A stretch of DNA of 43,957 nucleotides from a virus, in the IMG/VR virus record IMGVR_UViG_3300032214_000779, positions 1 to 43,957 of that record, one strand, 5' to 3'. Below are positions 16,013 through 34,677 of the stretch, one piece after another. Within the stretch, counting starts at the first letter, position 1, and the number at the start of each line of letters is the position of its first letter. A program made the translations under genes and the position numbers. The notes beneath the pieces are model-generated. The model ran no database searches. It saw nothing but the letters and a program-made list of their open reading frames with translations, and was not told where the DNA came from.

Positions 16013-16041
16013 ATCACCTTTTAAGTCCTCTTTAAGAAGAT

Positions 16042-16051: not shown

Positions 16052-16074
16052 TTCGAAAAATAATAAATTAAAAA

Positions 16075-16998
16075 ATGGCATCAGTTAGTATCACTGAAAT
16101 ATTAGGATCGGATTCTATATCCGGATCTAGAATCACAATAAATTCTAATTTTTTAATCCTCCAGAATTGGGTTAATGGATTTGAAAGCGTGTTTGGAATC
16201 GATACCTCCACGGGGGTTATGGATTTAACAAGTGCTTCCACTGGTAGAGTTTCAGCTTTGACTATCAGAGCAAACACATTTTCAACACCCGCTTCAGGAA
16301 CTGCTTTATCGTCAATAACAAGTTCAGGAGCAGCTTCTTTTGTTTCAACGTCAACCCAGACCTTAGCGGTTTCTGGAGCATCCACATTTAGTGGTGCAGT
16401 TGGTATAGCATCAGATTTAGCTCAGGCTTCGGGTGTTACCGCTAGCTTTGCTGGTAATGTTGGATACACATCCAGAACAACTTACGGAGCTTATTATAAC
16501 GAGGTTCATGCGAACAACTGGTCTACTAACGGATCTTTGGCTGTTGGAACACCTGGATTAACTGCTGCTTTCCCTGTCAGTACAACTGGAGTTGGAGGTG
16601 GCGGTATCACTACCAACGTTAACAATCCCTATGTTTTAACCGGAACAGAGGATGTTATTTATGCTAACTGCGGCCCAACTGGATTCTTTATGAAAGTGGT
16701 TGATGGCAACGGTGCTACTGCCTCTAGCTTACCTACTGGATTTAGATTTACTATAGTTAATACAGCAAGAGCAACCAATCCGTTTATTGCTACCGGTGTC
16801 ACTGGCGTTACCCAAACTTATTACACTGGCTTTAACACCTCTACCACATATGGGTCTTACACGGGTGTAACATTTGCTTCCAATACACCATATAGAAGTT
16901 CGGTTACCCTCCAATGGGAACCTAGAATAGCAGGAGATCAGTCAACTCAAAAAGGATCTTGGGTGATTGTTAATGGTGTCAATGTAACAGCTGGATAA
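16075..16998 (+). CDS. Fibre-type virion protein with shared N-terminal anchor motif
   Basis: A 307-aa protein rich in Ser, Thr, Ala and Gly, typical of phage fibre shafts. The first 40 residues contain DSIS (13-16) and NSNF (23-26). The same residues appear at the same positions in the collagen-like fibre proteins at 28373 and 30102, and one position earlier in the one at 31811. This suggests a common attachment site on the virion. Residues about 60-145 are imperfect short repeats (GTALSSITSSGAASF, STQTLAVSGASTFSGAV) of the kind that form trimeric beta shafts. The C-terminal 120 residues are a distinct domain ending in GSWVIVNGVNV and may be the distal tip. The receptor is unknown. Confidence 0.6.
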   Translation: MASVSITEILGSDSISGSRITINSNFLILQNWVNGFESVFGIDTSTGVMDLTSASTGRVSALTIRANTFSTPASGTALSSITSSGAASFVSTSTQTLAVSGASTFSGAVGIASDLAQASGVTASFAGNVGYTSRTTYGAYYNEVHANNWSTNGSLAVGTPGLTAAFPVSTTGVGGGGITTNVNNPYVLTGTEDVIYANCGPTGFFMKVVDGNGATASSLPTGFRFTIVNTARATNPFIATGVTGVTQTYYTGFNTSTTYGSYTGVTFASNTPYRSSVTLQWEPRIAGDQSTQKGSWVIVNGVNVTAG

Positions 16999-17016
16999 AA
17001 AACTTAGAAAGAAGAA

Positions 17017-19218
17017 ATGGCAAAAACCCCTTTTATTAGACCACTGCAAGTTCAGGGTGGAACTTTTTACACATTTAGTTCTGCAGCGGAAGACCTTGCC
17101 TTTACTTTCAATAACTCTGTCAATAAATTTAGATTTTCAAAGTTTGCACTTCTAAATATTCCAGATATAAGTACGACGGCATCTCAGCAGAACACTGTTA
17201 AATTAAATGCTCCCGATAGCGCATTCATAGACTGGAGTACAGCTACATACAATCTAGTACCTAGTGATGCTAACATAGCTTTCTCTCAGAGCTTCCAGTC
17301 ATATTGTTTAAATTTAGAAACGACTATCACTAGCAGTGACGAGTACGATCCTAGCCTAAAACAGAATGTTTCTGAGCGTGTTTTCTGGAAATGGATGAGG
17401 GAGATTGGAGCACTTAGATTTAAAGCAGCTTCAGCGGAACAGGTATCACCTTCTTTGGATCAAAATACTGTCACGTTCAATTCAGATGGTCTTCCCGTTA
17501 CACAAAAGAGATATGTTGAGGGAGACGAAACAGCAGGAACACCCGGAGCTATTGGTTTAACCGGTCCCTATAACAGGGTGGTTCAGTACATAGGTGGATT
17601 GGATATAGTAAATTCGGTTAGAAATCAGGATAATGCTTATTCTGAGGTTTATGTTTACGTTCCAACTATGGACGGAAACACACCTACTGTTTTATTTAAA
17701 AACGTTATAGATACCAACTACTATCCAGACTACACTTGGACTAATAATCCTCCAGATCCATTGGATGATGAATACCTAACCGGTAGATCATACACTGATG
17801 TTAATCCATCAGGTCTAAGTACTCTAGCTATCTTTGACGAAGAGGCATCTGGAGTACCTACCGTTTCTTATACAGAGACTTTTGATGGCTCTGCTTATAC
17901 AGGAAACTGGTATTCACCTTTAGATACACCTAACAGTTATTTCTCAGATAATTCATTTGTTGATCCGACAAATAAGATATTAAATAAGTCTTATGGTAGC
18001 ATAAACAATTGGCAATATGTCAGATCAAATCTTGATTCTATTGGATTGGATTTTGACCCGACATCATATAAGCAGATTATAGATAACTCTAGCATCTCAA
18101 CAATAGAGGAGTTCAATTCAACATCCGATGCTAGTGACTTTGATTTTAACTGTGTCCTTATTTATTATGATGTATACGATCCCGCTAACGAGGCAGACGT
18201 TGCAACAAATTTATATGGTGTTCTTTTCCTAGACGACGTTAACTCTGAATCTGGTGATTCTTTTATACCTAGATTTACCAAGTATAGACCAAATCCGGTT
18301 ACAAAACTAAATGGTAACTCCTATGGATTCAAGATCAATCTTAAATTTGATACTGATGTAGATCAGACCGGGGTTGAGCAAGCTATTAATGATTACTCGC
18401 CATTCTCGCTTTCCATGTTCATGGATGCTATGAATGTTTTACAGGACGCTTCCGGAACAATAAATGACACTGCTTCGCAGTTCATATTTCTTGAGCAAAG
18501 AGTAACTGCAATGGAGGATCTATTACTTTCTTCCACAACAACTGCTACTCTAGAAGCAAGAATAGCTCAATTGGAGGCTGCTCTTGCAGCTAATCAGGCT
18601 CTGTTTACCAACACTAATGCTGTTATGCAGTTGATAGACCAGAACTATGACATGACTAGGGCTATTATAAACGGCCAGTCTTCAATCACAGTTTCTTATG
18701 ATCTCGATCTTGTTAAACAGGGTAAAGGTATAGATGTTGACAGATCTATTCCAAATCAGCTTTATATCAATAATATAAATCAGGACTTTAATATAGGATC
18801 TAACAACGGAGTAGGAACTTTGACCCAAACTGGATCCAATCTGATACCTCTTGTTGAATTTTCAAATTACTTCAAGCACATTAACAACGGAATTCCTATA
18901 ACATTGACACAGGACATGAATATAAGGATCCAGGACACGAATATCAGATGGAAAACCGGGCAGAGATTCAGATTGACTTTTGGTGATAGAGTTTATCCTA
19001 GTGCATTCTTTATAAACATACTAACTAATGCTACTGGTGAATACCCCGTATCAAATCCTAATGCGTCTCCTTATTCGACCCTAATTATATCATTAGATTC
19101 CGATTTCTTCGCCCAATATGACTACTTACCAGTTCTAGAGATAGTTTGCATAAACCAAGATGATTTAGTTTTTCAGGTTGATGCTGTAGGAAAGAGTTTA
19201 ACAAATAACAATATTTAA
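17017..19218 (+). CDS. Virion structural protein with central coiled coil, 733 aa
   Basis: I do not recognise a family. The protein starts MAKTPFIRPLQVQGGTFYTF and is beta-like for about 480 residues, with many Tyr, Asp, Asn and Ser residues. A heptad-rich helical stretch follows near residues 488-545 (FLEQRVTAMEDLLL, then TLEARIAQLEAALAANQALF), which probably trimerises. About 190 further residues then look like a folded beta domain (KQGKGIDVDRSIPNQLYINN and on). This order, globular head then coiled coil then globular end, fits an elongated baseplate or fibre connector. The gene lies 18 bases after the fibre gene and 5 bases before the 1199-aa gene. Confidence 0.6.
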   Translation: MAKTPFIRPLQVQGGTFYTFSSAAEDLAFTFNNSVNKFRFSKFALLNIPDISTTASQQNTVKLNAPDSAFIDWSTATYNLVPSDANIAFSQSFQSYCLNLETTITSSDEYDPSLKQNVSERVFWKWMREIGALRFKAASAEQVSPSLDQNTVTFNSDGLPVTQKRYVEGDETAGTPGAIGLTGPYNRVVQYIGGLDIVNSVRNQDNAYSEVYVYVPTMDGNTPTVLFKNVIDTNYYPDYTWTNNPPDPLDDEYLTGRSYTDVNPSGLSTLAIFDEEASGVPTVSYTETFDGSAYTGNWYSPLDTPNSYFSDNSFVDPTNKILNKSYGSINNWQYVRSNLDSIGLDFDPTSYKQIIDNSSISTIEEFNSTSDASDFDFNCVLIYYDVYDPANEADVATNLYGVLFLDDVNSESGDSFIPRFTKYRPNPVTKLNGNSYGFKINLKFDTDVDQTGVEQAINDYSPFSLSMFMDAMNVLQDASGTINDTASQFIFLEQRVTAMEDLLLSSTTTATLEARIAQLEAALAANQALFTNTNAVMQLIDQNYDMTRAIINGQSSITVSYDLDLVKQGKGIDVDRSIPNQLYINNINQDFNIGSNNGVGTLTQTGSNLIPLVEFSNYFKHINNGIPITLTQDMNIRIQDTNIRWKTGQRFRLTFGDRVYPSAFFINILTNATGEYPVSNPNASPYSTLIISLDSDFFAQYDYLPVLEIVCINQDDLVFQVDAVGKSLTNNNI

Positions 19219-19223
19219 AAGAA

Positions 19224-22200
19224 ATGGCAGGCACTCAAAATTCTATAAGTTCATTAGTTGCTCAATTCTTGAGACTTCAGAAAAATGCTTTAGAAATCAT
19301 CAACGGTCTGAACGAAGTGGCTACGTCTACCAACGAGACAGTTTCAATAGAGGTTTTAGATGACAATGGTAATCCAACTACTGCTAGTATCCCATCGTAT
19401 GGTTATCTAAGAGCACAGATCGACAGAATAGACGGCAACATACAATCTCTAGCAGGTATTTCAAATGGATCAACCGTGAGAAATCCTGACGGAACTTATT
19501 CTCAGGTTTTCAAAGCGGAGCCTCTGAAGAACCCAGCTCCCTTGAGTAATCTATCGGTACCTGCTACTTTCCAAACTAGAGACAACTGGTTTTTTGAAAG
19601 CTTCCTCAGTCCTCTTTTATATGTCAGCATAGACGTAACTGGAAAGATACAAGAAAGCTCAGATAGGATTCTTATTAAGAGAATAATAGCTAACACGACA
19701 GATCAGGCTCAGAAAGATTTTTTTGATAACAACCTGAAGGGAAGAAATGATATTTCGTATGATAATTTCGTTACTGAATTAACTGCTGCTGGAATTCAAT
19801 ATTTTACCGATGAGAATATAGAGCAGCTACCACTTAGAAAATTAAGATACACTGGTCCATTTAGCGTTATTTCTTTTTATGATAGCGTGGTTTCTACGAC
19901 AAGTCAAAATGGACAGCTGGTTCAGACAACAGTTAGAAATTACAAATTAGGAAGTTTAAATTATACAGATACAACTACAGGTGTTCAGAACTCTAAGGTT
20001 CTAAACAATGGAGATCGTTTATCTACCGAGGATGGTACCATATACTTAGTTACCTCTGTGAATATCGACGAGTCTTCGGTGCAACTACAAAGACTATCTG
20101 GATATCAGCAGGTCTTTTTGGGAGCTAATACTCTTAACTTCTATTCGAATGATTTGGGTCCTAGATTTGTCGATGTCACCGTAGCAAACGATGAAAGACA
20201 AGGCGTATTTTTTAAGACAATCGACGATAATTACAATATAGTTTCGTCTCAGTGGTCCACCGGGGTAACTTTCTGGAGTAGCGAACTTACAACTCTAGAC
20301 TCCGCTGGAAATTTGGTCACCCTTGAGCAATTCTACGTTTCACAGGTGGCCGATATAGGTAAAGTGTTTTTGGATATGGCGAAGGAAAAAACAGTCCCTG
20401 CCATCCAAGGATTAACGCCAAATATACCCACTGTTGCAGAGACAAACTTCAAGGTTGTACAGATCAATAAGCAAGTAACAGATTCAGTTCCTGCTAAGAC
20501 AGCTACGGATAAAGTTGCTGCTAAAACATCGCTAAAATCAGAGATCGATGCACTTGACGTTTCGATCAACCAGACTAAGGTGCAGCTAAATCAGGCTAAA
20601 TCTTTGGGTAGCACGGCATCTACGGCTGGAGCAACTAACACCATACAGTCAAAATTAAGTTCTCTTATAGAAGAGAAGGCAAAAAAGAGCCAGCTGTATT
20701 CTTCAGTTGTAAAAGATATACAAACTACAACTACTGATCTAGCGCAGATTAACACGCAGCCTAAGTATAGAGTTAGGGGATTTTGGGCTATACCAGATCC
20801 AATTTTCGATCCACTAACTGGTGAACAGCAGGTAATAGCTTTCAAGGTAAGATATAGATATCTTTCAGACAGTGGAGCAACACAGCCAACTGAACAGATA
20901 AAGTTTGTAGACAACAACGGCCAACAAAAAACTGGAGCTTTTACAAACTGGACAGAGTATACAACTCAGATAAGAAAGAAGGTTTACGATTCAGCAAAGG
21001 GTATTTATGTGTGGGCTCCTGAGAGCGTTGATAATGCAGATGCTCAGAATGTTAACCAGCTTGATATTCCGATACAGAAAGGAGAAAGAGTTGAAATACA
21101 GATAGCTTCCGTTTCTGAAGCTGGATGGCCTAATAATCCTCTTGTTTCTGAATATTCTGAACCCGTTACAATATCATTCCCTAATGATTTGGGTGTCAAT
21201 GGCATCTCTGATCTTTTGAAATCAAATTCAGAGGATTCAGCGGTTGTTAGAATACAGGATGATCTTAACGCTCAGGGACTACCCCAGCATTTATCCGAGC
21301 AGTTCACAGAGAACACAGTTACTTTCTTCCACCAGGCTTCTAATATTGCCTCTGGATTTTTTAATTCAGCTGGTGGAACTATAAGTCTTTTCGATAAGAT
21401 AGCGGAATTACAGCAGCAGATATCAGTTCTACAATCACTAGTTTCAGCTACTGTTGGTATATTGGAGATTTATCTATTGGACGATATAAGCTCGTTACGG
21501 ATAACAAGCGGACAGGTTATAACTCTTAATGCTGGTTACTATAATGAGATTTTCGATATCCCAACTGATAATGGAAAGATCTACACTAAGACATATCTAA
21601 TTTCTATTAGAAATTCACAATCTACACCAGTAGAGCTTCAGTCTATAGTTCCAGGAGGAATAACAACTCAGGCACCTGTTGCAACGTATCCGCAGATAGA
21701 TGGGTACGGTACCAATCTAAGATATGGTGGTGTACCTATTTCCGTTGTTACTTATGCATCATCGGATGTGGTATCGAACGTCAGCATCCAACAGGCAGCT
21801 CCTTTTGCTTGCGCACAGACATACGGTCAGTTCTTATATTCAAGATATAAAAATCTTGGCTTGGATCAGGATTTATACCTAACAAGCTCTCAGATCCCAA
21901 CTTTCAATGATCTTTATGATTATAGCGGATCCACTCCAACCACTGCATTTTTTGGTGTGACTGGTGGAATTATGCCTGTTAATGGATCTTGCTTAATACC
22001 ATATGACCCAACAAACACTCCAACGACGGTTTCAGGTTCAACCGGTGCTTCGATATGGGACGGAACATTCTCCATAACAACGCCAGTTGGCGGCGGAGTT
22101 ATTTCCGAGTTTTGTATAGCAACATCTCATCCAGTTTTGAATACTGGAGCAACCGGAACATTCGTTAATTATGTTAAGCCTAATTTTGACAACTCTGTAC

Positions 22201-22823
22201 CTGGATCTATAGTATACCCAGCCTTCAGACATGCTTTAGGGTTCTATGGTGATTCAACGCTTCCTGGTTATTATGCTCAAACACAATATAGAACTCCTAC
22301 AGCTGCTGCCGGAGCAACTGCTGACGCAGTCGATATCTATGATTCACAATGGCAAGATAAGGTTGGCTTCTCTGCTGATGATCAGTATTTGCTTGGTAAA
22401 TATTCATGTGGAGCTTATCTTTTCTTAGGAATACCACAGGCAACATTCCTTGCAGTTGATGGATTTACCGCTCAAGCATCTAAGAGGATCTATGAAGGCA
22501 CTAATAATGCAATCAACGTTCCACTTATATTCCAATTCAGAGCTAATGATTTAGGAGGCTATATAGGGGGATGGAGAAAAGCTGGCAATCTAAGTAACAT
22601 CACATACACAAAGAAAATAGGAATAGATTTACAGCAGAGGGCTCAAAGTATATTCTCTTTTGATATACAAGTTTCTGGATCATTTAGAAACCAAAATCTA
22701 ATAGCTCCTAATTTTGGGTCTCAAGTAACTCCTCCTGTCAACTCTCCGGTAAATGTTTTCAACCTGTCTCTGGATAACAATCAGAATAACAACTCCGGAT
22801 TTGGTGGGCTTTTTAATCGGTGA
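19224..22823 (+). CDS. Large virion structural protein with coiled coil and fibronectin-like domain
   Basis: This 1199-aa protein opens with a helical segment (SISSLVAQFLRLQKNALEII). Residues about 437-510 form a long Lys/Gln/Ser-rich coiled coil (KSEIDALDVSINQTKVQLNQ and SKLSSLIEEKAKKSQLYSSV). Residues about 512-652 look like a fibronectin type III-type domain (VIAFKVRYRYLSDSG ... VEIQIASVSEAGWPNNP ... SEYSEPVTISFP), a fold common in tail proteins that bind carbohydrates or pack as spacers. A second helical stretch near residue 725-750 (KIAELQQQISVLQSLV) precedes a beta-rich 450-residue C-terminal region. It ends in an Asn-rich tail. The context gives a tail or baseplate role, and the specific function is unknown. 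Confidence 0.6.
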   Translation: MAGTQNSISSLVAQFLRLQKNALEIINGLNEVATSTNETVSIEVLDDNGNPTTASIPSYGYLRAQIDRIDGNIQSLAGISNGSTVRNPDGTYSQVFKAEPLKNPAPLSNLSVPATFQTRDNWFFESFLSPLLYVSIDVTGKIQESSDRILIKRIIANTTDQAQKDFFDNNLKGRNDISYDNFVTELTAAGIQYFTDENIEQLPLRKLRYTGPFSVISFYDSVVSTTSQNGQLVQTTVRNYKLGSLNYTDTTTGVQNSKVLNNGDRLSTEDGTIYLVTSVNIDESSVQLQRLSGYQQVFLGANTLNFYSNDLGPRFVDVTVANDERQGVFFKTIDDNYNIVSSQWSTGVTFWSSELTTLDSAGNLVTLEQFYVSQVADIGKVFLDMAKEKTVPAIQGLTPNIPTVAETNFKVVQINKQVTDSVPAKTATDKVAAKTSLKSEIDALDVSINQTKVQLNQAKSLGSTASTAGATNTIQSKLSSLIEEKAKKSQLYSSVVKDIQTTTTDLAQINTQPKYRVRGFWAIPDPIFDPLTGEQQVIAFKVRYRYLSDSGATQPTEQIKFVDNNGQQKTGAFTNWTEYTTQIRKKVYDSAKGIYVWAPESVDNADAQNVNQLDIPIQKGERVEIQIASVSEAGWPNNPLVSEYSEPVTISFPNDLGVNGISDLLKSNSEDSAVVRIQDDLNAQGLPQHLSEQFTENTVTFFHQASNIASGFFNSAGGTISLFDKIAELQQQISVLQSLVSATVGILEIYLLDDISSLRITSGQVITLNAGYYNEIFDIPTDNGKIYTKTYLISIRNSQSTPVELQSIVPGGITTQAPVATYPQIDGYGTNLRYGGVPISVVTYASSDVVSNVSIQQAAPFACAQTYGQFLYSRYKNLGLDQDLYLTSSQIPTFNDLYDYSGSTPTTAFFGVTGGIMPVNGSCLIPYDPTNTPTTVSGSTGASIWDGTFSITTPVGGGVISEFCIATSHPVLNTGATGTFVNYVKPNFDNSVPGSIVYPAFRHALGFYGDSTLPGYYAQTQYRTPTAAAGATADAVDIYDSQWQDKVGFSADDQYLLGKYSCGAYLFLGIPQATFLAVDGFTAQASKRIYEGTNNAINVPLIFQFRANDLGGYIGGWRKAGNLSNITYTKKIGIDLQQRAQSIFSFDIQVSGSFRNQNLIAPNFGSQVTPPVNSPVNVFNLSLDNNQNNNSGFGGLFNR

Positions 22824-22830
22824 TAAATAC
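22822..22830 (+). promoter_or_regulatory. Possible late-promoter-like GATAAATAC
   Basis: GATAAATAC differs by one base from T4 late consensus TATAAATA plus C, and is followed by TAAT. It overlaps the stop of the 1199-aa gene and lies 41 bases before the ATG at 22863. It is A/T-rich, so chance occurrence is quite possible. Confidence 0.3.
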
Positions 22831-22862
22831 TAATAAGACAATAAATCCTTAATTAGTAATAA

Positions 22863-25800
22863 ATGCCAGCTCAGAAGTTATACGACTACAACACATCGTT
22901 CTCATTAATGAGAACCAACCCCGCCCTAAGCGGTAATGTTAAAATAACTGTAGATTCTAACGGGGGTGTATGGCTCAATTCTTTTGATGCTGACACTCTT
23001 CTCACCTCAGATATTTTTAAGAAGTATAACGTAACGGGTGATAAAAGTTATGCTGAGGATTTATTTACATTCTTCAATCCCAGTGTCATCTCGTCTAGCG
23101 TTGTATTTAAAGTTGGTAGGTTCACTAATGGAGACATAGAAGCTTCTAACAATTACGCTGGTCAGTATGATTTCTTTTATACTTCAGGAGCTCAAACTCT
23201 TATCGATAAGAATTATGAGGAGGAATTTTCATATCTTGCACCTCTTTGGTTAAGAAGCGAGATCCCGGATTTCTTTGTTATATTTAAAGTACCCGGTCCA
23301 ATTTCCTATAAATATTCGGATAATCAAACCGTTATTAATCAAGGTGTAAAGTATAAGGTAGTTAAAAATTACGATCAGGATGATTTCGTTGTAAGATATG
23401 GTACAGATTCAAGCGGAAATCCTGTTTATTATTCAGATGGAGATTTTTTTACTGGCTTATCTGGATTGACATCCTATTCAATAACATCCGGACAAGGCTC
23501 GGTTGTGATATTCGAAGAACTTTACAATCTTTCAAATGTACAGGACGTCGAGACATATTTTACCGAGAAAATACTACCAAATTCAGAGGCTGTAAAAACT
23601 TACGACCTAAGAAGTGGAACCAAGATCGGTGATTACATAAGAAACATATTTTCGAATCTAGGAGAGCAATATTCGCCCGTTTATATCAATTTTGGTGAAG
23701 GTGGATTTAGTTACTTTAATGGTATATCTCTAGCATCTGGCACATATACACAAGCTGGCGAGTTAATGAGAGACTATTTCGTTAGCTCTGGCTCCACTGT
23801 GCAGATGGATTTGGAAAGATATGTTACGGAAGGATTTGCTAGAAATGCCATCGTTTGTCCAAATCTATTGAATCTTGAGTTTTTATTCAACGACGCTGAA
23901 GCCCAAGACTATGATATCAACAGATATTATGGGGCTTATGTTTCAAGAAATGACACAGGGGAATTTAAGCTAAATGGTAATTTCCTTTATGAGTTTAGAA
24001 ATTCGGAAGGAAATGAGAATTATCCGGTTCCAAGTAGAAATGCATTTGGATATTACTACAACAACACTTCTTACCCAGTCGCTGCTACTTCAGGTGTTAG
24101 ATTATATTACGAAGGCGCTAGTGGATTTTTACCAGGGTCAAACGATACCAATTCCACTAATTACCTTAAGCTTTTTTACATAACCGATAAAAATGACAAC
24201 TTCTATTCCCTGAAAAGAATAGAAAATTGGGATTCTAGTGTAACTGCATCTTCACCATATGGATATGGACCCTATGAACCTGTCAATGAAACGTTCGGTG
24301 TTACTGGTTCTACTGGATGCACAGCGGGAACTTTTGTTTTACAAAACACATCGGTTGATCTTCTAAATTTTACAGGCATAGATGATCAGCTAGTTAGCGC
24401 AAGAGGATCCATAAATGGCCAAAATGGCAGACCGTATTTCGATATAAAATTTTTACAAGATTGGAATATACCAAATAAGGATCTTGTTATTAAAATATAT
24501 TGGCCACAGGGGTCCAGAGTGGAAGGTGCAGAGAGATATGATATAATAAGAAGTGGGGATTTTTCAGGAACCATAGTTTGGGTAGCAGGAAGCACATACA
24601 GCAGCGGCAATAATTATTATTTCAATGCATCTGCTGGTACGACTTCAGAAGTAGCTGGAGCTTTTTCATCCAGTGTTTATGAAATATCCGATATAGTTTG
24701 GGACTCTGGTACGGTGGAATCCTCCTCAGTAATAAGAGTTAAGAATCCTAATGACGTGGGAAATTCCACATATTACGTCTCTGTTTTTGATAATTATGAT
24801 TATTTCGAGTCTAAGTATCAGAGGCTGTGGTCTCCTTCTAGTTCTTATGCGGCAGGTGATATCGTTAGATATAATGGAAGGTATTATCAGGCTTTAAGCA
24901 ATATAATCGCTTCTCCGTCGTCGTCTAATATTAACCCGGATGACCTAGAAGGTGTGTCTTGGAATCTGTATTATTCTCTAAGCTCCTCTGGTTATATCGA
25001 GGTGAAGGGGGAAGACGCAGCTCAAGTTTCCGGGATTAAGTACTTTCAAGGTGGAACTGATAAGCCTAAAATAAGAGTTGCATTTGACGACGACCTCCTT
25101 AATTTGGTAAGACCTGGAAACTTTATACAGACAGAGAAGGGGTTCTCTTTAATATCGGAGATAGACAGATATGTCGATGACCCAATCTACGACAGTAATA
25201 CTAAGTTAGTGACAGGATTCAATGATTATAACTTATTCAGGGTTGCTGTCATATCCGATATCTATGATGAGATAAATCTGGGGTCTGATTCTAGATTTAA
25301 TGTGTTTGCACCTTATATTCTTAAAACCGGAGTATTTACTTTCTTTGACTTTAAAGATTTCGATTTTGATTTTTGGAGTTCTAATTATGGAATAACCCCA
25401 AACTACGAGACTTATAGATATTTCCAACTTTTACCGGGGACGGAAGGAGAAATAGTAGAAGATATAGAGTATTACGTCAAAAATGGTAGCGTTTCATATA
25501 ATGGCTCCACTTATGGACAGTTAACCACTTTTGTTGGTGTTAGCGGAGCTACTTCTTTTGAGAACGCTTCATCCGGTAATATAATTCCGGTAGTCTATCC
25601 TCTCCAATTTTCGGATGCTAACTATAATCAATACAGCATTAGTACAGGCTATGAGGATGATCTGGATTCTTTTAATGGATTTGTTGGTATCAGATCGGTA
25701 GAGCAGACTGCTCCCATACCTGATACCGCAACTAAGGTTCAGACCTTTAATTACGGTTTACTAGCAGATGAATACTCGTACCTGAAAGAAAACTATACGG

Positions 25801-28367
25801 TTGAAAGAGCAAATCTTTCTAGGATAGTTCCTTTTATAAATAAATGGGGATATAAGTACGGGACAGATTCAAGGGGCCATCAATATAGGCTTAATTTAAC
25901 TCCAGCTTTTACCCCTAGTAATTTCTCACCAACATTTCAGAATCTTTATGCGGATCCAAAGTACCTAACTCACGAGTGGTTCCTGCTAGAGAATGTACCT
26001 AGACAGTTCCCGGTAGAATTCATGAAGGACCAGCAAAGTTATGTAGGGAGCAAAATAAACATAGCTTCTGTGTTGGACGCATCCCCGGATTCAGCTCTGT
26101 ACCTATCCTCTTATTTTACTGTTAGCCCTAGTGACTATCCTGTTGAATATCAGGACCCCAAGGATGAGACAAAGGAAATGTTTACTGAATTTACATATAA
26201 CGAGGGGACTGGTTTTTATGAAACTGTTTTTAGAGGTGCGAAAGTAACTCTAAAGAAAAGGTCTGATTTTAAAGCCGATCTACAGGGTAATAACAATATA
26301 AATTTATATGTAAATGGATTCAGAGGTTATGAGGGATATAGATATGCCTCGTTGTTGAGAGTCATTCCGGAGGATTCCAGTACTATACAAACTCCAGTTT
26401 CTTATAAATTTATAGAAAACAACACGCAGAAGTTTATAATTCTTTTGATTGATGTTGTGATGAATGATTATAAGCTTCAGCCCCTTGGATATACAGGTGG
26501 AACTGGTGGATCCCCTATCGTGGATTATACGCTACTATACTCACTCAGTAACAAGAATATCTTACCTGAGCAGTTTATTTCCGATCAACCACTCTATACT
26601 ATAGCGGATATCAAGTTGAGCTCAGCTTTAAATCTTGGTTATTCATCTGGCAGCTCCGTTAATACCGCGACCAATCCCGGTGTGATATTCATAGATCCTA
26701 ATCCTGATTACGACACCGATTTAAGGGAAGAGGTTAACCTAACTTATAGTAACTCTGTTGCTTTCTCTAGCTTCGGTTATACTGGTGCTGGAAGCTTCTC
26801 CGTTCCTTCTATAAGCTGTCTATATCCTTGGCCAAATGGAGTATCTGAAAGATTCCTAGAATTTGGACCGATTGGGCAGGGATTGAATTACTATTTTGAT
26901 ATACCCTTCTCTTTCACCAGCCCAGTGACTGTTCCAGTTGGTTCTGCTAGCATATATGCGGGGAAACCCGTCTTTCAGGTTCAGGGAGGTGAGGATTACT
27001 TCGATTTTATAACTAAAAGAACATCTTTTTCTTATGTCTCAGAAAGAGTTAACACCCTGAATCCTTACGTAGATTACGAGTCATATTTCTATAACGAGAC
27101 AAGCTCTAGCTCCACATTAAAGCTGAATGACTTTGCAATATCATTTGAGCAGCCAGCTCAGATATTCAAGCCATCTGAGTCTAGACCAGTGAGAGTTTTT
27201 TCTTCCGATGCTGCTTCAAATAGACCTGGACTTGTACCAGGTAAGGGGCCAGAAACACAATCTGTTAAAGTACCGAATTCTTATGAGATCCAGGTTACCC
27301 TAAATGGGGTTCCTTCGCAGCTTCTAAGACACTCCGGTAAATATGAGCCCATGTTCAGAAAGACCCTGTTCTTTATTAATGATAAAACCGATACTATCCC
27401 AAATACCGGTATAGATCTGAGTTTTAGAAACTGCACTTTTGGACCGCAGGTCTATAATTTTGGAATCATAAAGAATCTTAATTATACCAAGGTTTCACAG
27501 AATAACATACTACAGGCAAGCGCTAATCTTCCTGCTGGACCTAGATATCCATTAGTTGGACAATCCCCGATAGCTAGGAAAGATTTTAATGTTTTCCAAT
27601 CGTCATGGGATGCCGGATATTACAATGATTATACAACAGCAACTGTTCAGTCTTCCGTTGCTGGTACTAGAGCAATGCTAGAAAGAAAGAGTTTCCTTGG
27701 TAGCAAGATAATGAAAACCCCTAGCAATGTGGTAATTGATAATCAGATTGTCCTTCAGGTTAGCAACAATTCAGGTATTACTGATGCTAGCTCTATTAAC
27801 TTGGAGGCATTTAATTCTCTAATAACGATACAATCTATAAATTCAACAAACTCTGGAACACAAATAGGACTACTAACACCATACAATAATCCCAATCCTC
27901 TGTCAACTATCAACAATGGCATCTTCCCGAACGTTGAAATATTCTGGCAAAAGATAAATTCAACCACAATTAACGGAGTTATTAGATTGGATAGAATGCT
28001 TAGAAGATATCTTATGAATGATGGTGTTGGAGATGTTTTCTTGAATAATATCATATCTGAATTTGGAGTTGGTGACCCAGCATCTATTCAGGACGATATA
28101 TTAAGTTACCTTGAATTAAATATAGCCCCTGTTTACGAGGGATCTATTCTTCAGGTTTATGTCAAAAAGACCGCGACCGGTGTTCAGGATCCAAAACTTC
28201 AAGTTAGAGGTGATATAGCTGCTACTGAAAGATTAAGGCTAGGCTACATACCGGATAAGAATTTAATTTTGACTAAAGTTGATAATCTGGTATATAATTT
28301 CTCATATAAACTGCAATCCGGATTTAATTACCAGCTAATATTCAGATTTAATATAGATAAAATTTAA
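22863..28367 (+). CDS. Giant virion protein with chitin-binding-type module, 1834 aa
   Basis: This is the largest gene in the window. The family is not recognised. It begins MPAQKLYDYNTSFSLMRTNP and is almost wholly beta-like, rich in Tyr, Ser, Asn, Asp and Phe, with no membrane span or signal peptide. Residues about 650-708 read like a CBM5/12 chitin-binding type module: W-SPSSSY-AAGDIVRYNGRYYQAL, then an Asn/Pro-containing spacer, then W-NLYY. This suggests binding to a polysaccharide such as host capsule or peptidoglycan. The C-terminus ends with a compact beta segment (YNFSYKLQSGFNYQLIFRFN). It is 5 bases from the collagen-like fibre gene, so both probably belong to the same distal tail assembly. 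A polysaccharide-contacting baseplate plate protein is plausible, but the role of the remaining 1700 residues cannot be read. Confidence 0.6.
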   Translation: MPAQKLYDYNTSFSLMRTNPALSGNVKITVDSNGGVWLNSFDADTLLTSDIFKKYNVTGDKSYAEDLFTFFNPSVISSSVVFKVGRFTNGDIEASNNYAGQYDFFYTSGAQTLIDKNYEEEFSYLAPLWLRSEIPDFFVIFKVPGPISYKYSDNQTVINQGVKYKVVKNYDQDDFVVRYGTDSSGNPVYYSDGDFFTGLSGLTSYSITSGQGSVVIFEELYNLSNVQDVETYFTEKILPNSEAVKTYDLRSGTKIGDYIRNIFSNLGEQYSPVYINFGEGGFSYFNGISLASGTYTQAGELMRDYFVSSGSTVQMDLERYVTEGFARNAIVCPNLLNLEFLFNDAEAQDYDINRYYGAYVSRNDTGEFKLNGNFLYEFRNSEGNENYPVPSRNAFGYYYNNTSYPVAATSGVRLYYEGASGFLPGSNDTNSTNYLKLFYITDKNDNFYSLKRIENWDSSVTASSPYGYGPYEPVNETFGVTGSTGCTAGTFVLQNTSVDLLNFTGIDDQLVSARGSINGQNGRPYFDIKFLQDWNIPNKDLVIKIYWPQGSRVEGAERYDIIRSGDFSGTIVWVAGSTYSSGNNYYFNASAGTTSEVAGAFSSSVYEISDIVWDSGTVESSSVIRVKNPNDVGNSTYYVSVFDNYDYFESKYQRLWSPSSSYAAGDIVRYNGRYYQALSNIIASPSSSNINPDDLEGVSWNLYYSLSSSGYIEVKGEDAAQVSGIKYFQGGTDKPKIRVAFDDDLLNLVRPGNFIQTEKGFSLISEIDRYVDDPIYDSNTKLVTGFNDYNLFRVAVISDIYDEINLGSDSRFNVFAPYILKTGVFTFFDFKDFDFDFWSSNYGITPNYETYRYFQLLPGTEGEIVEDIEYYVKNGSVSYNGSTYGQLTTFVGVSGATSFENASSGNIIPVVYPLQFSDANYNQYSISTGYEDDLDSFNGFVGIRSVEQTAPIPDTATKVQTFNYGLLADEYSYLKENYTVERANLSRIVPFINKWGYKYGTDSRGHQYRLNLTPAFTPSNFSPTFQNLYADPKYLTHEWFLLENVPRQFPVEFMKDQQSYVGSKINIASVLDASPDSALYLSSYFTVSPSDYPVEYQDPKDETKEMFTEFTYNEGTGFYETVFRGAKVTLKKRSDFKADLQGNNNINLYVNGFRGYEGYRYASLLRVIPEDSSTIQTPVSYKFIENNTQKFIILLIDVVMNDYKLQPLGYTGGTGGSPIVDYTLLYSLSNKNILPEQFISDQPLYTIADIKLSSALNLGYSSGSSVNTATNPGVIFIDPNPDYDTDLREEVNLTYSNSVAFSSFGYTGAGSFSVPSISCLYPWPNGVSERFLEFGPIGQGLNYYFDIPFSFTSPVTVPVGSASIYAGKPVFQVQGGEDYFDFITKRTSFSYVSERVNTLNPYVDYESYFYNETSSSSTLKLNDFAISFEQPAQIFKPSESRPVRVFSSDAASNRPGLVPGKGPETQSVKVPNSYEIQVTLNGVPSQLLRHSGKYEPMFRKTLFFINDKTDTIPNTGIDLSFRNCTFGPQVYNFGIIKNLNYTKVSQNNILQASANLPAGPRYPLVGQSPIARKDFNVFQSSWDAGYYNDYTTATVQSSVAGTRAMLERKSFLGSKIMKTPSNVVIDNQIVLQVSNNSGITDASSINLEAFNSLITIQSINSTNSGTQIGLLTPYNNPNPLSTINNGIFPNVEIFWQKINSTTINGVIRLDRMLRRYLMNDGVGDVFLNNIISEFGVGDPASIQDDILSYLELNIAPVYEGSILQVYVKKTATGVQDPKLQVRGDIAATERLRLGYIPDKNLILTKVDNLVYNFSYKLQSGFNYQLIFRFNIDKI

Positions 28368-28372
28368 AATAC

Positions 28373-29557
28373 ATGTCAAGGCTAAACCTGCAATCTTTTT
28401 CCTCGTCCGATTCACAATCTGATCTTGTTTCTAAACTGAATACAAATTTTAATCAGGTTGTAAATTCTTTTGGTGGAACTCTTGGTGATCAAGGACCCAC
28501 CGGGGAAAGGGGAAACATAGGTTTAAGAGGACCTGCTGGAGCTACCGGAAACATGGGGAGGAGAGGAACTAGATGGTTTGTTCAATCGAATGGACCAACA
28601 GGCCCCGATGTTAATACAGGAGACTACTGGCTGGATGCTAATGCGGACTGCTACATTTACCAATCCAGCGGTTGGAATATAGTAGGTTCTCTAAAGAGAG
28701 ACCAGGACTTATTTAAAACAGTTGAAAATGTGGTTGGTCCTGCCGGGATTACAAGCGGCGTTGTGACAGCTCTTAACCAATTGGATCCTTCAGATTTTGG
28801 ATTTGTAGTAGCTGACGACCAACCGGAGCAAGCGGGTAATTTGAACCCAGAGGGTGCCAAATTCGTTATATCTAGCAATCCGTCCGTTTCAACAGGGTAT
28901 CCTCTGGAATTTAGCAGATTGGATAAAGATACTTTTGGCTCGACTGGATCTATAGATGATACTGTAAAGCATCCCTTTTTCGCATGGGAAACAGGATTAG
29001 ATTTGTCACTTCAAGCTCCAAATGGATCTATAAAAATTGATTTTGGTGGGGGAGCAGCTGGATCAGCTTCTATAAACACCGTTAATGATGTAACATTGGA
29101 AGCCAGAACTGGATCTATAACATTCGGAAATCAACAAGTAACAGCTTCGGGTAATATAATAGTTAATGCTGCCGGTGGTAAACTTCTAGTTAGCGGTACA
29201 TATATCTCTATATCTGCAGTTGAATCTAATTTTGGAGTTGAGCTGACTGATGCATTTAATTTTAATTTAACACCCAGTGTCTCTAGCACAACCGGCTATT
29301 TTAATGTTACCAAGAACGCGGGAGACGGCAACTCTGTTTATAGCTACGCTCAACCCGTTATGAGAGTAACTAGATTCTTTACATACGGGACTAACTTATA
29401 TTCTTCGGCTTCGGCTGTTAATCTAGGTAAATTTACTTCAGCTGGTAGCGGTACAGTATTGGAAATTAGAGCAAATGGTAAAATTTACACGAAAAAAACT
29501 TCAGAAAGGTACTATAATAATACGACATCACCTATCATTACATGGACTACACCATAG
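28373..29557 (+). CDS. Collagen-stalk tail fibre, paralog 1
   Basis: A 394-aa fibre protein. Residues 1-33 hold the anchor motif (DSQSD at 13-17, NTNF at 23-26). Ten uninterrupted Gly-X-Y triplets (residues 38-67, for example GPTGERGNIGLRGPAGATG) form a short collagen-like triple helix. The conserved module WFV ... GDYWLD ... DCYIYQ (residues 68-100) follows, then a beta shaft with the phrase NPEGAKFVISSNPS, which has counterparts in both other paralogs. The C-terminal half diverges and is the likely receptor-binding tip. Collagen-like repeats in phage fibres drive trimerisation. The gene follows the 1834-aa gene by 5 bases with no Shine-Dalgarno sequence. Confidence 0.78.
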   Translation: MSRLNLQSFSSSDSQSDLVSKLNTNFNQVVNSFGGTLGDQGPTGERGNIGLRGPAGATGNMGRRGTRWFVQSNGPTGPDVNTGDYWLDANADCYIYQSSGWNIVGSLKRDQDLFKTVENVVGPAGITSGVVTALNQLDPSDFGFVVADDQPEQAGNLNPEGAKFVISSNPSVSTGYPLEFSRLDKDTFGSTGSIDDTVKHPFFAWETGLDLSLQAPNGSIKIDFGGGAAGSASINTVNDVTLEARTGSITFGNQQVTASGNIIVNAAGGKLLVSGTYISISAVESNFGVELTDAFNFNLTPSVSSTTGYFNVTKNAGDGNSVYSYAQPVMRVTRFFTYGTNLYSSASAVNLGKFTSAGSGTVLEIRANGKIYTKKTSERYYNNTTSPIITWTTP

Positions 29558-29578
29558 TTAGAATAATAAAATTGTAAA

Positions 29579-30088
29579 ATGCCAGTAACACCACAGCTAT
29601 ATAATAAAATAAATTGGTATGCGATACCATATTTTGATTCGATAGATTCTAGGACAATCTTTATCGATCCATCTTACGGAGCGGTTGGAACAGATAGCTC
29701 TGCATCTGCTGGTGCGAATGGTGCCTATTTGGGTATAGGATTTGATGTTTCGAATTATCTCTCCAATAATACGCTGCCAAAAAGTGAAGCTGTTAGATTA
29801 AGAATCATTTGTAGTAGGCCCTCTCCTAACTCATCTTTGCCATCTCTCTCTGGTTTTTCTTTTATTGGATTATTTGAGGGAAACGCTAGACCGGTGACCC
29901 TAAACACAGATTATTGGACTCTTGGTGAAACTACTAGTACCCTCAATATATGCTCACAGGTTGACATCACAATATTTGGTTCTGGTATAGATTCATCGGA
30001 CAACCAACCACAAGTTTTTTGGGAGGCTTATAGCTACAATTCAAGAGGAGGCTGGAGTGGAAATTTTCCTCTAGCCCCTGTGCTATAA
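29579..30088 (+). CDS. Unknown protein among fibre genes, 169 aa
   Basis: I do not recognise this protein. It is a small, mainly beta-like Ser/Asn/Gly-rich protein (for example SYGAVGTDSSASAGANGAYLG) without the anchor motif, collagen repeats, signal peptide or membrane span. It lies between two paralogous collagen-stalk fibres, with gaps of 21 and 13 bases. That position fits a fibre chaperone, a tip protein that caps a neighbouring fibre, or a lectin-like subunit. None of these is supported by sequence similarity I can see. Confidence 0.5.
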   Translation: MPVTPQLYNKINWYAIPYFDSIDSRTIFIDPSYGAVGTDSSASAGANGAYLGIGFDVSNYLSNNTLPKSEAVRLRIICSRPSPNSSLPSLSGFSFIGLFEGNARPVTLNTDYWTLGETTSTLNICSQVDITIFGSGIDSSDNQPQVFWEAYSYNSRGGWSGNFPLAPVL

Positions 30089-30095
30089 TATATAA
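30087..30095 (+). promoter_or_regulatory. Promoter-like AATATATAA before fibre paralog 2
   Basis: The element AATATATAATT matches the one before the gene at 10211 and lies 15 bases before the ATG at 30102. It overlaps the stop codon of the 169-aa gene. Confidence 0.22.
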
Positions 30096-30101
30096 TTCAA
30101 T

Positions 30102-31805
30102 ATGATAGATTTAAGACTTATAAATTTACAGGAAGGTGATTCACAATCTGATGTAGCAAACAAACTAAACTATAATTTCAATCAGATTCTTAGCGCTGGA
30201 GGTGGAGCTTATGGTCCTATTGGGATTGATGGGACAGTGGGAGCATTTGGCCTTACCGGGGCTACCGGACCTGTTGGATTTCAGGGTCAAAGAGGTAATT
30301 TCTGGTTTGTCCAGGCAACAGATCCACAAACTGGTCTTACCGGGGCAACAGCTGGTGATTATTGGGTCGATCTTTCTAACGATTGCGAAGTTTTTCAATA
30401 TACACTAACTAGCGGGAGCTATTCATGGATTACCCAGGGATTTTTATTAGCGCAAAGCGGGGTCTTTGAGATAGCCTCTTCTATAACTGGACTAACCTCT
30501 GGCTCACCATCGCAAGCATATGTGATGGCTTTGCCAGATCCCGCTGAAAAAACTTTAATTCTGACTGGAGCATCTGGTCCAAGTGTAAAAAATCCTCAGC
30601 TTTCTAAGGTTATTGTAGGTAATGGTGGAACGTCCGGGTATCCTTTATTAGAATTCTCTAAAACGGATTATCAATCCGATTCATCATTTAATTCCAGGAC
30701 ACCGAAGATTAAGTGGGGTAGTACTACAACGGCTAATTCTGAGGCCTATGGATTGACTCTAGAAACAAGAGGCGGAATTGACTTTAATACGAGTTATTTT
30801 TCGCTAAGTGGTTTGAATATAGTTTTTACTACATCTGGCTTAACAGGATCTTTTAGCGGCGATGTTAACTATACTGCAGCGACAGGTGATTTTGAATTCT
30901 CGTCTGCTAATTTATCAATTAATGCAGCTAATTCAATCTGGAACACGAAGGGATTTACTGGACCTGTTAGGTTCTCCGTTACGACCGATACCAGCACTAT
31001 AAATTCGGGTAGAAATTCTCTTCTTTTACAAGACGGGATAACATACAATAGAACATCAAACTACGTAACTGGCCAGAATTTACTAAAGGTAAATTATAAA
31101 GGCACATCCAGTTATCCAGGATATGGCCCGTATTTATATTCGGATAATAATTTCTATTTAGCAGATTCTGACGGAAACAATAAGTTTGCTAAGAAAACCA
31201 GCGGATATTTTCCAAACCCCAAAACTGTTTCTTCTTATAATAACACGGGAACTTATCAATGGTCAGGAAAAATAACCGGGTCTAATTATGTTTATAGTGT
31301 AGGGGCTGCCTCCAGCACCACAACTAATACTAGCCTAATGAGACATCAGATAGGCGAATTTTTTCATCCTGACGTGTTTACAGGTAATCCCGGAGTAACA
31401 GGTCCTCAAGCTCTTTCGGTCTTTATACCCAATTCAGCATCCTCTGCTAAAACTGGTTACGGATACCTAGTTCAGAGCGGTGAAACCATGACGTTTAGAG
31501 TTAATTCCACCTCAAGTGGATATGGATTTAATACAATAATATTGGATGCACCAAATTCAAATAATCCGACCTCTTCTTTTGGTACTCTTTCCTCTGGTGC
31601 GAAAAAACAGGCTGTTCTTTTGGGAGATCTGGTCGATAGCGGCGGGAGCGACTCCGTCTATGCTGACCAATTTGAATTTAATATAGTCAGGGTCAATTCG
31701 CTTAATGAATGGAAGGTATACTTTAAAGCATGGGGCGGAAATATTAAAAATTACACAAGCACAGACGGGGGTATTCTCTGCGGCTGTGTTTCAACTACAG
31801 ATTAA
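30102..31805 (+). CDS. Collagen-stalk tail fibre, paralog 2
   Basis: A 567-aa fibre aligned with paralog 1 without gaps for about 70 residues: anchor DSQSD at 13-17, NYNF at 23-26, ten Gly-X-Y triplets from residue 38 (GPIGIDGTVGAFGLTGATG), and FWFV at 67-70. The GDYWVD ... DCEVFQY module and an NPQLSKVIV ... GYPLLEFSK segment also correspond. The C-terminal 350 residues are unrelated in sequence to paralog 1 and end in a Cys-containing tail (GGILCGCVSTTD). Shared base and divergent tip are the usual design of alternative receptor-binding proteins. It is preceded by a promoter-like motif and followed 5 bases later by paralog 3. Confidence 0.78.
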   Translation: MIDLRLINLQEGDSQSDVANKLNYNFNQILSAGGGAYGPIGIDGTVGAFGLTGATGPVGFQGQRGNFWFVQATDPQTGLTGATAGDYWVDLSNDCEVFQYTLTSGSYSWITQGFLLAQSGVFEIASSITGLTSGSPSQAYVMALPDPAEKTLILTGASGPSVKNPQLSKVIVGNGGTSGYPLLEFSKTDYQSDSSFNSRTPKIKWGSTTTANSEAYGLTLETRGGIDFNTSYFSLSGLNIVFTTSGLTGSFSGDVNYTAATGDFEFSSANLSINAANSIWNTKGFTGPVRFSVTTDTSTINSGRNSLLLQDGITYNRTSNYVTGQNLLKVNYKGTSSYPGYGPYLYSDNNFYLADSDGNNKFAKKTSGYFPNPKTVSSYNNTGTYQWSGKITGSNYVYSVGAASSTTTNTSLMRHQIGEFFHPDVFTGNPGVTGPQALSVFIPNSASSAKTGYGYLVQSGETMTFRVNSTSSGYGFNTIILDAPNSNNPTSSFGTLSSGAKKQAVLLGDLVDSGGSDSVYADQFEFNIVRVNSLNEWKVYFKAWGGNIKNYTSTDGGILCGCVSTTD

Positions 31806-31810
31806 TTAGG

Positions 31811-33520
31811 ATGAGATTCAGTAATAAACAAATATTTAACGGGGATTCTAAGGATGAGATAGTTTTAAAAGTAAATGAAAACTTCTCACAGATTATCTCT
31901 TTTTCTTCCGGCCCAGAGGGGAGACCTGGAATTATAGGTCCAACGGGTTATCCTGGATCTGCTGGTCCAGTCGGCCCAACTGGAGCTTCCGGAACAAGAG
32001 CTTCTTCTTGGACTTTAAGTCCAACTCAGCCAAGCAATGCTAATGAGTATGACCAATGGATAGACCAGGGAGTGACCGGGAATGGGGACATATATCAGTA
32101 TGAAGGATCATCTTGGCAAAGTACCGGAATTTCTCTAATAGAGTCTGAGTTTTTCCAGGTCAAAAACGATCTTCCTATATTTGGAGCAGTTACAGATTTC
32201 TCCGGGATTTATTTCTCAGGTACAAATCAGAATAATGAATCTTTGGTTATTTCCGATGCTAACAACACATCTAGCAACATCAACCCGAATTACGCTAAGC
32301 TTCTAGTAAGTACATCGGATCAAACAGAAAGACCGATATTTTCATTTAGAAAATCAAGTTTGAGTCAATTATCTCAGCCTTCATTTTATTGGTCACAATC
32401 CGGGAACTCATCCAGAGTTTCTTTTCAATCAGGTAGCAGCCTCAGCTTAGTAGCGGGATCCGATGGTAATTTTTCACCTCAGAGTTCAGGAACTGTTAAT
32501 TTTAATTCTAGAAATGCATATTTTAATGCTTACAACACGATAGATTCACAGCAATTAAGATTTTCAGCTTCTGGAAATTTGATTTTCAATACTACTAATT
32601 ATAGTTTGTCAGCTTCAGCTATTACCGCAAACGTGGAGACGTATGTTTTTGGGTCTGCCTATATAGAGCCAGCTTTATCTGTTTCTAATAGATCACAGGG
32701 TGTTGTTATAACCAGGGGAGGAACTTCTAGCTTTCCTGCTGTTTCCTTTTCAACAACCCAATTTTCGTCGGTGATTGAATATAACTTTGCTCCATTCAGA
32801 CAGGTTTTTAATATCAACCAGTCCACTGCAATATTGAGCGAGACCGATCCCATAACGGATGTTGCATACAGGGATGTTAGATCTAGAGCTACTTTTGGAG
32901 CAACTGGTGATGACGTTGGTGTTTATGATATATGGTCATCAGGTATACCAACCTCTGCAACGGGTCCTTTCGGGTACCACGTAGTTGGAAACACACAGTT
33001 TGCCCCACAGGTTGGTAGTTTTTATATCGGTAGGCCATCTTCTTCCACACTAAGATACTATGCGGATTTATCTTCGCTTTCAAATTATTATAACGACTCT
33101 ATAACATTCACCCTGCCGAGCACGTGGGCGGGTGGTAATAATGTTTACGTTAAAATACCTAGTATCACATCTGTTCCGCCTGCTGCTAGCACATATCCTT
33201 TATATGGGCCAGAGTATGTGAGCGAATATAAGGTTTTCCTTGATTACGGCAGATTCACGAACGTTAGCAGAAAAATAACTGGAATATACTGGATCCAGCT
33301 TGGTAACGCCTCAGGTTCTTCTACGCCGACATACACCGAAAAATACGTCACTTTTAATAGACCGTGTTATTTCTTTGAGCTGACGTATCATTATAATAAC
33401 AGCTCTCAGGTGATGGCTTATGTCAAAACTTGCACAGGACAAAGCTATCCTATACAGATGACAAACTACACAGGTAGACCTGTGTTATCATCCCCAGTGG
33501 GAGGCGGAATTAGACGATAA
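31811..33520 (+). CDS. Collagen-stalk tail fibre, paralog 3
   Basis: A 569-aa fibre with the same plan but more diverged: anchor GDSKDE at residues 11-16, NENF at 22-25, ten Gly-X-Y triplets at 34-63 (GPEGRPGIIGPTGYPGSAG), then the module YDQWID ... GDIYQYEGSSW. The shaft segment NPNYAKLLVSTSDQ corresponds to that of the other two. The C-terminal region is unique, with a late aromatic/Cys-rich part (RPCYFFELTYHY) and the ending GGGIRR. The gene closes the fibre block; an A/T-rich hairpin (33523-33538) follows. Confidence 0.76.
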   Translation: MRFSNKQIFNGDSKDEIVLKVNENFSQIISFSSGPEGRPGIIGPTGYPGSAGPVGPTGASGTRASSWTLSPTQPSNANEYDQWIDQGVTGNGDIYQYEGSSWQSTGISLIESEFFQVKNDLPIFGAVTDFSGIYFSGTNQNNESLVISDANNTSSNINPNYAKLLVSTSDQTERPIFSFRKSSLSQLSQPSFYWSQSGNSSRVSFQSGSSLSLVAGSDGNFSPQSSGTVNFNSRNAYFNAYNTIDSQQLRFSASGNLIFNTTNYSLSASAITANVETYVFGSAYIEPALSVSNRSQGVVITRGGTSSFPAVSFSTTQFSSVIEYNFAPFRQVFNINQSTAILSETDPITDVAYRDVRSRATFGATGDDVGVYDIWSSGIPTSATGPFGYHVVGNTQFAPQVGSFYIGRPSSSTLRYYADLSSLSNYYNDSITFTLPSTWAGGNNVYVKIPSITSVPPAASTYPLYGPEYVSEYKVFLDYGRFTNVSRKITGIYWIQLGNASGSSTPTYTEKYVTFNRPCYFFELTYHYNNSSQVMAYVKTCTGQSYPIQMTNYTGRPVLSSPVGGGIRR

Positions 33521-34667: not shown

Positions 34668-34677
34668 ATTATAGAAA

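Follow-up and report, generated by a model that had tools for sequence, protein, structure and literature searches.

Three collagen-stalked fibres (A, B and C; proteins P0002, P0003 and P0004), encoded next to one another in a fragment of a T4-like phage, are recognised by their sequences as ancient paralogues with a rod of fixed length, each of which appears to keep its own position, while the tip of fibre A has become a separate protein. The best explanation of these features, which we consider probable and hold with moderate confidence, is a trimer-seeding, baseplate-docking N-terminal helix that is used at several dedicated positions. The fragment, hereafter the window, is the whole stretch of DNA that was analysed, a linear virus record of 43,957 bases.

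The T4-like tail genes within the window comprise homologues of gp25 and gp6, the tail tube and a head-tail adaptor; in addition, a PhoH-like protein is encoded at 15332. The host probably belongs to the Bacteroidota, since homologues of the neighbouring protein P0007 occur in Bacteroidota phages and the host of phage PAU, listed as Sphingomonas, was later re-identified as Sphingobacterium (PMC3738902). An identity of the clade as bS21 phages was rejected, given that bS21 is present in only one of nine genomes. Elsewhere in the window, two baseplate-region proteins of 1720 and 1688 aa (5016-10178 and 10211-15277) carry propeller repeats of the YCF48/BNR type (PF14870), which are unusual among baseplate proteins; the match in the 1688-aa protein lies below its cut-off. 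A 468-aa protein at the left end (72-1478) resembles, by eye, amidoligase-type enzymes. Just after the fibres, a 288-aa protein (33801-34667) has a membrane segment at its N-terminus and matches DUF6808 weakly, and a similar-looking protein (34016-34861) likewise trails the fibre of the 462-kb record LR756500.

Fibre identity and layout

The members of the A/B/C family are identified as fibres because the homologue in LR756500 ends in an S74 chaperone, gp179 of phage pT24 gives a weak Gp10_C match, and ORF16 of phage MA9V-1 (17,616-19,355), which carries the N-terminal module described below, was published as 'short tail fiber protein' (PMC10537231). Homologues from isolates fall into PHROG 8763, 'tail protein', to which P0002-P0004 gave no match at E<=1, and scans of the window fibres against Pfam and PHROGs detected no tail-collar, S74 or known receptor-binding domain. 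No Pfam or PHROG family was matched by the module alone, and a PDB profile search with it returned only four chance-level matches to unrelated proteins (E 0.15-1.8). Hence, an earlier note on this DNA, which knew of no name for the module, was right with regard to the module itself, though whole homologues bear the two names given above. The features of the fibre region are the following:

28373..29557 (+): fibre A, P0002, 394 aa; slot-A clade 99/95 in the head tree; homologues in close relatives 61-63% identical
28373..28474 (+): fibre A N-terminal module, residues 1-34; most conserved part of the protein
28475..28573 (+): fibre A collagen-like rod, residues 35-67, 11 Gly-X-Y triplets, then W68
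28574..29062 (+): fibre A shared head (W68, DYW module), up to roughly residue 230; every A/B/C pair matches in the head
29579..30088 (+): P0005, 169 aa, separately encoded tip of fibre A; homology to the C-terminal tip that relatives carry on a one-piece fibre A
30102..31805 (+): fibre B, P0003, 567 aa; slot-B clade 85/36, with a single origin recovered in 98% of the bootstrap trees
30102..30203 (+): fibre B N-terminal module, residues 1-34
30204..30302 (+): fibre B collagen-like rod, residues 35-67, 11 triplets, then W68; spacing 42
30303..30791 (+): fibre B shared head, to about residue 230
31811..33520 (+): fibre C, P0004, 569 aa; slot-C clade 97/91
31811..31909 (+): fibre C N-terminal module, residues 1-33
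31910..31999 (+): fibre C collagen-like rod, residues 34-63, 10 triplets plus RAS, then W67; spacing 42
32009..32500 (+): fibre C shared head, residues 67-230

The open reading frames and motifs that the earlier note had described for the proteins starting at 28373, 30102, 31811 and 16075 lie where it had placed them, apart from two small corrections. P0002 holds D13-S-Q-S, N23-T-N-F26, a G-x-y run at 35-67, RWFVQ and GDYWLD...DCYIYQ; P0003 holds D13-S-Q-S, N23-Y-N-F26, 11 triplets at 35-67, FWFVQ and GDYWVD...DCEVFQY; and P0004 holds D12-S-K-D, N22-E-N-F25, ten triplets at 34-63 with RAS as the eleventh, SWTLS and YDQWID...GDIYQY. Ten triplets, as counted previously, are thus correct for fibre C (10 plus RAS) but not for A and B (11), and the numbering 13-16 and 23-26 applies to A, B and P0001, while fibre C, whose front is shorter by one residue, has its motifs at 12-15 and 22-25.

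BLAST comparisons among the three fibres yield 1e-13 to 2e-22 over ~190-300 residues, and the similarity of their residues 1-35 was reached by none of 2000 shuffles; the fibres are accordingly classed as ancient paralogues. Residues 1-230 are common to them and consist of the ~30-residue N-terminal module, the 11-triplet collagen rod and a "W...DYW" head, so that the shared unit of about 30 residues proposed earlier exists by itself in P0001 only. In each of the four families (A, B, C and P0001), the module ranks first or among the first segments by conservation. Mean pairwise identity amounts to 0.52-0.61 in the module of fibre A, versus 0.26-0.48 past residue 64, and for the fibres in general to 0.5-0.7 in residues 1-64, versus mostly 0.15-0.47 past residue 100. 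The family pattern, N-terminal xIxxI-x2-4-D-[STND]-x6-K-[LIV]-N-x-NF-x-x-[IV] within residues 1-35, is fitted by P0002-P0004 and by other fibres, with K21, N23, N25 and F26 being invariant, while P0001 shows a divergent version of it.

With regard to its distribution, each of four close relatives, including one of 180 kb, contains four copies of the module, and LR756500 contains two; there it opens a 205-aa P0001 homologue located before P0006, as in the window, and a 1789-aa fibre located after P0008. A 408-aa ORF (15574-16800) that resembles, by eye, GIY-YIG homing endonucleases lies between the P0001 homologue and P0006 of LR756500 and thus sits inside the virion gene cluster. Among 23 contigs selected by P0001, the fibre-only profile recovered three fibres in 15, two in 5, one in a single contig and none in two; in the three contigs with one or no fibre, P0001 lies towards the contig end, hence the fibre region is probably cut off there. 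In a held-out test, all of the eight contigs chosen only by P0007 held three fibres and one P0001. PAU, pT24, PTm5 and MA9V-1 feature one module fibre each; a profile of fibres plus P0001 matches PAU gp266 and MA9V-1 at E 0.03, and in a search with the PAU head the LR756500 fibre was the only record matched outside PAU and Tenacibaculum phages (4e-3). The module was not found in T4, P-SSM2, HTVC008M, crAss001, phi14:2, phiKZ or the Lak-A2 record, and with no match in these six control phages and the Lak-A2 record, its consideration as a general T4-like or crAss-like feature was rejected. The N-terminal profile search of other phages suggested by the earlier note therefore retrieves the module from many phages, with diverging tips.

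The N-terminal module, P0001 and the baseplate neighbours

Upstream of the fibres, P0001 and three large conserved proteins are encoded:

16075..16998 (+): P0001, 307 aa, collagen-free, with a related N-terminal module; full-length homologues in 35 viral contigs
16075..16176 (+): P0001 module, residues 1-34; mean identity 0.88 in residues 13-34 versus 0.40-0.61 in residues 65-307
17017..19218 (+): P0006, 733 aa, conserved neighbour and candidate baseplate partner; 37% identity to the LR756500 homologue, which occupies the same place
19224..22823 (+): P0007, 1199 aa, PHROG 29329, conserved neighbour and best candidate socket by co-occurrence
22863..28367 (+): P0008, 1834 aa, immediately preceding fibre A; in LR756500 and PAU a homologue likewise immediately precedes the first fibre

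P0001 carries D13-S-I-S and N23-S-N-F26 without any collagen, and the module is its most conserved part. Its resemblance to single fibres is weak, the scores being reached by 25, 343 and 44 of 2000 shuffles, and a search of the relatives with the fibre-only profile did not find the P0001 orthologues at E 0.1. For this reason the link was tested by profile-profile comparison with an empirical null. The two family profiles align without gaps, residues 1-26 on 1-26, at a hhalign E of 3.5e-5; when columns were shuffled 1000 times, the start Met being masked, this match was reached once. Moreover, in a ranking of 1183 N-termini taken from all loci, the 22 of the P0001 family all came immediately after the fibres, only 2 of the ~940 non-fibre N-termini outranking some of these 22. 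The AlphaFold model of P0001 is poor (mean pLDDT 46.9). ORF154 of Flavobacterium phage MaF61 (18982-19791, minus strand), which is collagen-free, adjoins a P0007 homologue and bears a fibre-type KLNANF module, is matched by the fibre profile at E 0.007 in that genome and is not detected by the P0001 profile; it may represent an intermediate.

Convergence on a short N-terminal motif in place of common descent or function would agree with the weak pairwise scores, with the failure of the fibre-only profile to detect P0001 orthologues and with an alignment limited to the first 26 residues. However, the single hit among 1000 shuffles, the in-register, gap-free alignment and the ranking of the whole family speak against it, as does MaF61 ORF154 despite being missed by the P0001 profile, and convergence is thus considered unlikely, although it retains some weight. 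A shared origin of both modules appears the likelier account. Hence, the earlier proposition that the 307-aa protein uses the same module receives moderate support.

Positions 19, 22, 26 and 29 of the module are hydrophobic in all three slots, which corresponds to a 3-4-3 spacing, and AlphaFold predicts a helix at residues 15-32 for the head part of fibre A with low confidence (mean pLDDT 43.7). Together, these two features suggest a short trimeric coiled coil, whereas the invariance of K21, N23, N25 and F26 suggests a further contact, most simply with the baseplate. In the favoured explanation, fibres A, B and C would be short-tail-fibre-like proteins at the baseplate periphery of a T4-like Bacteroidota phage, all three descending from one collagen-stalked fibre that was duplicated long ago. 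Residues 1 to ~34 would constitute the virion-proximal end, composed of a short strand and a subsequent helix of ~18 residues with the 3-4-3 hydrophobic stripe, and would fulfil two tasks: seeding the trimer, thereby setting the register of the collagen rod, and docking the trimer onto the baseplate. P0001 would employ a related N-terminal helix, devoid of a rod, for a baseplate position of its own.

It could also be that the module serves as a trimerisation seed only, as a short coiled coil setting the register of the rod or as the coiled coil of P0001, and that other parts of the protein attach to the baseplate, a reading which we deem rather unlikely. The hydrophobic spacing common to all slots, the placement of the helix immediately before the collagen rod and the helix predicted by AlphaFold, albeit with low confidence, are all in line with it. 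Yet the four invariant residues and the identity of 0.88 in P0001 exceed the needs of a bare coiled coil, and P0001 has no rod whose register could be set.

If the helix docks onto the baseplate, as the favoured explanation would have it, P0007 is the best candidate for its partner, because P0007 co-occurs with the fibre and because genes of the P0007/P0008 type directly precede the fibre in several genomes. Homologues of P0007, all below 60% identity, were found in 31 phage records, the carriers being Prevotella Lak, Tenacibaculum, Chryseobacterium and Flavobacterium phages, PAU and uncultured huge phages. A homologue was present in each isolate record that has a module fibre and in each contig tested for P0007. 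The fibre homologues directly follow P0007/P0008 genes in LR756500, PAU and pT24. In MA9V-1, on the contrary, a long distance separates the fibre gene from the P0007 homologue. This counts against the favoured explanation, as do the poor quality of both AlphaFold models, the failure to detect a collar, S74 or known receptor-binding domain in the window fibres, and the shortness of the stretch, 26 residues, that links P0001 to the fibre module. PDB profile searches with P0007 or P0001 returned nothing worth using. Residues 656-683 of P0008 match the chitin-binding-type domain CBM_5_12 just above the curated cut-off, hence this putative baseplate protein may itself touch surface sugars.

Rod length, slots and a detached tip

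An uninterrupted Gly-X-Y run of 10-11 triplets can be read directly in the window fibres, whose PF01391 matches (5.6e-5, 0.029 and 8.6e-4) all lie below the curated cut-off. Counted from where NxNF ends, the next aromatic residue follows at a distance of 42 in 62/62 fibres of a first set (W in 61, F in 1), and for fibre A taken by itself this spacing to W is seen in 18/18 proteins; the first set comprises 16-19 non-redundant fibres per slot, and as some proteins are near-copies, the independent cases are fewer than these raw counts. The register is also kept by 33 further fibres (31 W, 1 F, 1 I), 17 of which stem from six contigs outside the motif-defining set. The linker right after the aromatic residue, up to the DxW motif, by comparison ranges from 13 to 22 residues in many forms, and rod lengths other than this occur in relatives with a single fibre. 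Fibre B of contig G014 (about 5683-7600) shows a frame shift inside the collagen stretch with the remainder open in another frame, probably a sequence error. Functionally, the rod would act as a fixed 11-triplet spacer that is closed by an R-G-x-x-W motif and carries head and tip outward, where the tips would bind host surface structures. It is also conceivable, though improbable, that the three paralogues with their equal, indel-free rods assemble together, either as a heterotrimeric fibre or as a bundle of three fibres registered at a ring of W residues; the rod would then be a molecular ruler common to three different tips, including one that is made as a protein of its own.

For pairwise matching, the proteins were cut at residue 230 into head and tip. 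Heads match in 1891/1891 pairs, within as well as between slots. Tips match within slots in 128/253 A-A, 100/136 B-B and 120/231 C-C pairs, but between slots only in 3/391 A-B pairs, all weak, and in 0/506 A-C and 0/374 B-C pairs, which bears out the divergence beyond about residue 220 noticed earlier. A tree built from 61 heads resolves each slot, A, B and C, as one group (99/95, 85/36 and 97/91). The heads group by slot and not by genome, genomes recur in similar order inside each group, and the gene order of the slots is kept across genomes; genomes with two fibres hold A and C according to this tree. Fibre lengths, with slots as first sorted before the tree, amount to 394-594 aa for A, 487-671 aa for B and 526-1284 aa for C.

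Three slot-wise lineages imply that heads were not exchanged between slots, and such descent favours three dedicated positions over a single common socket. Each fibre thus appears to keep its own position, with one dedicated slot per fibre and docks that would be homologous but not interchangeable. The earlier note had envisaged one socket that takes any fibre, letting the phage carry or swap tips by fibre exchange. While the similarity of the module between slots and the mutual recognisability of all heads would suit a common socket, the three separate head lineages that follow their slots across genomes, the conserved slot order and, save for the three weak A-B matches, the failure to find any tip on the head of another slot speak against this idea, which we consider quite improbable. 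Phage fibres are usually homotrimers, and a single heterotrimeric collagen fibre built jointly from the chains of A, B and C, although it would explain why the spacing of 42 is kept clade-wide in all three paralogues and differs in single-fibre relatives, is highly improbable in view of unrelated tips of very different lengths, genomes with only two fibres, and LR756500, PAU, pT24 and PTm5, in which only one fibre was seen.

Returning to dedicated slots, fibre A provides a further peculiarity. In the window and its close relatives it measures 394-396 aa, versus 509-594 aa elsewhere, and is followed by a gene for 169-174 aa; the break coincides with the shaft/tip junction, and the tip is encoded as a separate gene in 4/4 close relatives. 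P0005 aligns with the tips of one-piece fibre A proteins from INWY onwards (hhalign E 1.2e-5; score 40.3 versus at most 20.6 in 200 shuffles) and is on these grounds identified as the missing tip of fibre A, separated by fission within one clade. Judged from start coordinates, P0005 is in frame with fibre A in the window but out of frame in the close relatives L002 and L005, so that readthrough is not the general route of its production. P0005 presumably joins the shaft of fibre A non-covalently. The step from a one-piece to a two-piece fibre is thus caught in a single clade.

Comparison with known systems

Closest to the window fibres are PAU gp266, pT24 gp179, the PTm1/PTm5 fibre and MA9V-1 ORF16, which share the N-terminal module, a collagen stretch and an R-G-x-[RK]-W junction. 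In PAU and pT24, as in the window, the fibre directly follows genes of the P0007/P0008 type. Unlike the window, however, these isolates revealed one copy per genome, with collagen that is shorter, interrupted and of varying length, and pT24 gp179 possesses a Gp10_C-like tip which the window fibres lack. No P0001 homologue was detected in PAU, pT24, PTm1/PTm5 and MA9V-1 with the P0001 profile.

T4 gp10, gp11 and gp12 are adjacent trimeric proteins of the baseplate periphery, encoded side by side and thought to derive from one primordial fold (PMC3004832). The window fibres likewise are adjacently encoded relatives at a putative baseplate periphery and, comparable to gp12, lie near baseplate wedge and pin genes, in a cluster with homologues of gp25, gp6 and the tail tube. 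On the other hand, no sequence relation and no match to the module were detected in T4, and the window fibres are devoid of a collar domain.

Several receptor-binding proteins per virion with conserved N-termini and diverse C-termini are also known from TSP1-4 of CBA120 and from the branched spikes of RaK2 and phiK64-1 (PMC10253068, PMC8432352). In those spikes, the N-termini consist of folded TD/XD domains whose mutual binding produces a branched complex, as opposed to the ~30-residue helix and collagen rod of the window fibres, in which no gp10-like TD/XD domain was matched in Pfam or PHROGs. Moreover, receptor modules were found swapped between spikes, while the window fibres bear almost no sign of tip swapping. 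In eCIS, eBAP1-5 combine a conserved N-terminal baseplate anchor with very diverse fibres, some of them collagen-shafted (PMC12923769); these anchors are whole folded domains of injection systems, in contrast to the window module, which alone matches no Pfam or PHROG family.

Taken together, phages with multiple fibres and conserved N-termini, the gp10-gp11-gp12 relatives of T4 and the anchor domains of eCIS were already known, whereas the specific module, a rod free of indels across three paralogues, descent by slot and a tip that has become detached are new here. Two surveys of large aquatic and freshwater phages with predicted Bacteroidota hosts nowhere mention collagen (PMC9723584, PMC12619734). 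Beyond these parallels, the window fibres offer sequence-level rules for how large Bacteroidota phages may mount several fibres simultaneously, namely a single short anchor, a rod of constant length, slots that are not exchanged and tips that can be replaced. With the module profile, the virion end of such fibres can be recognised in genomes that lack annotation.
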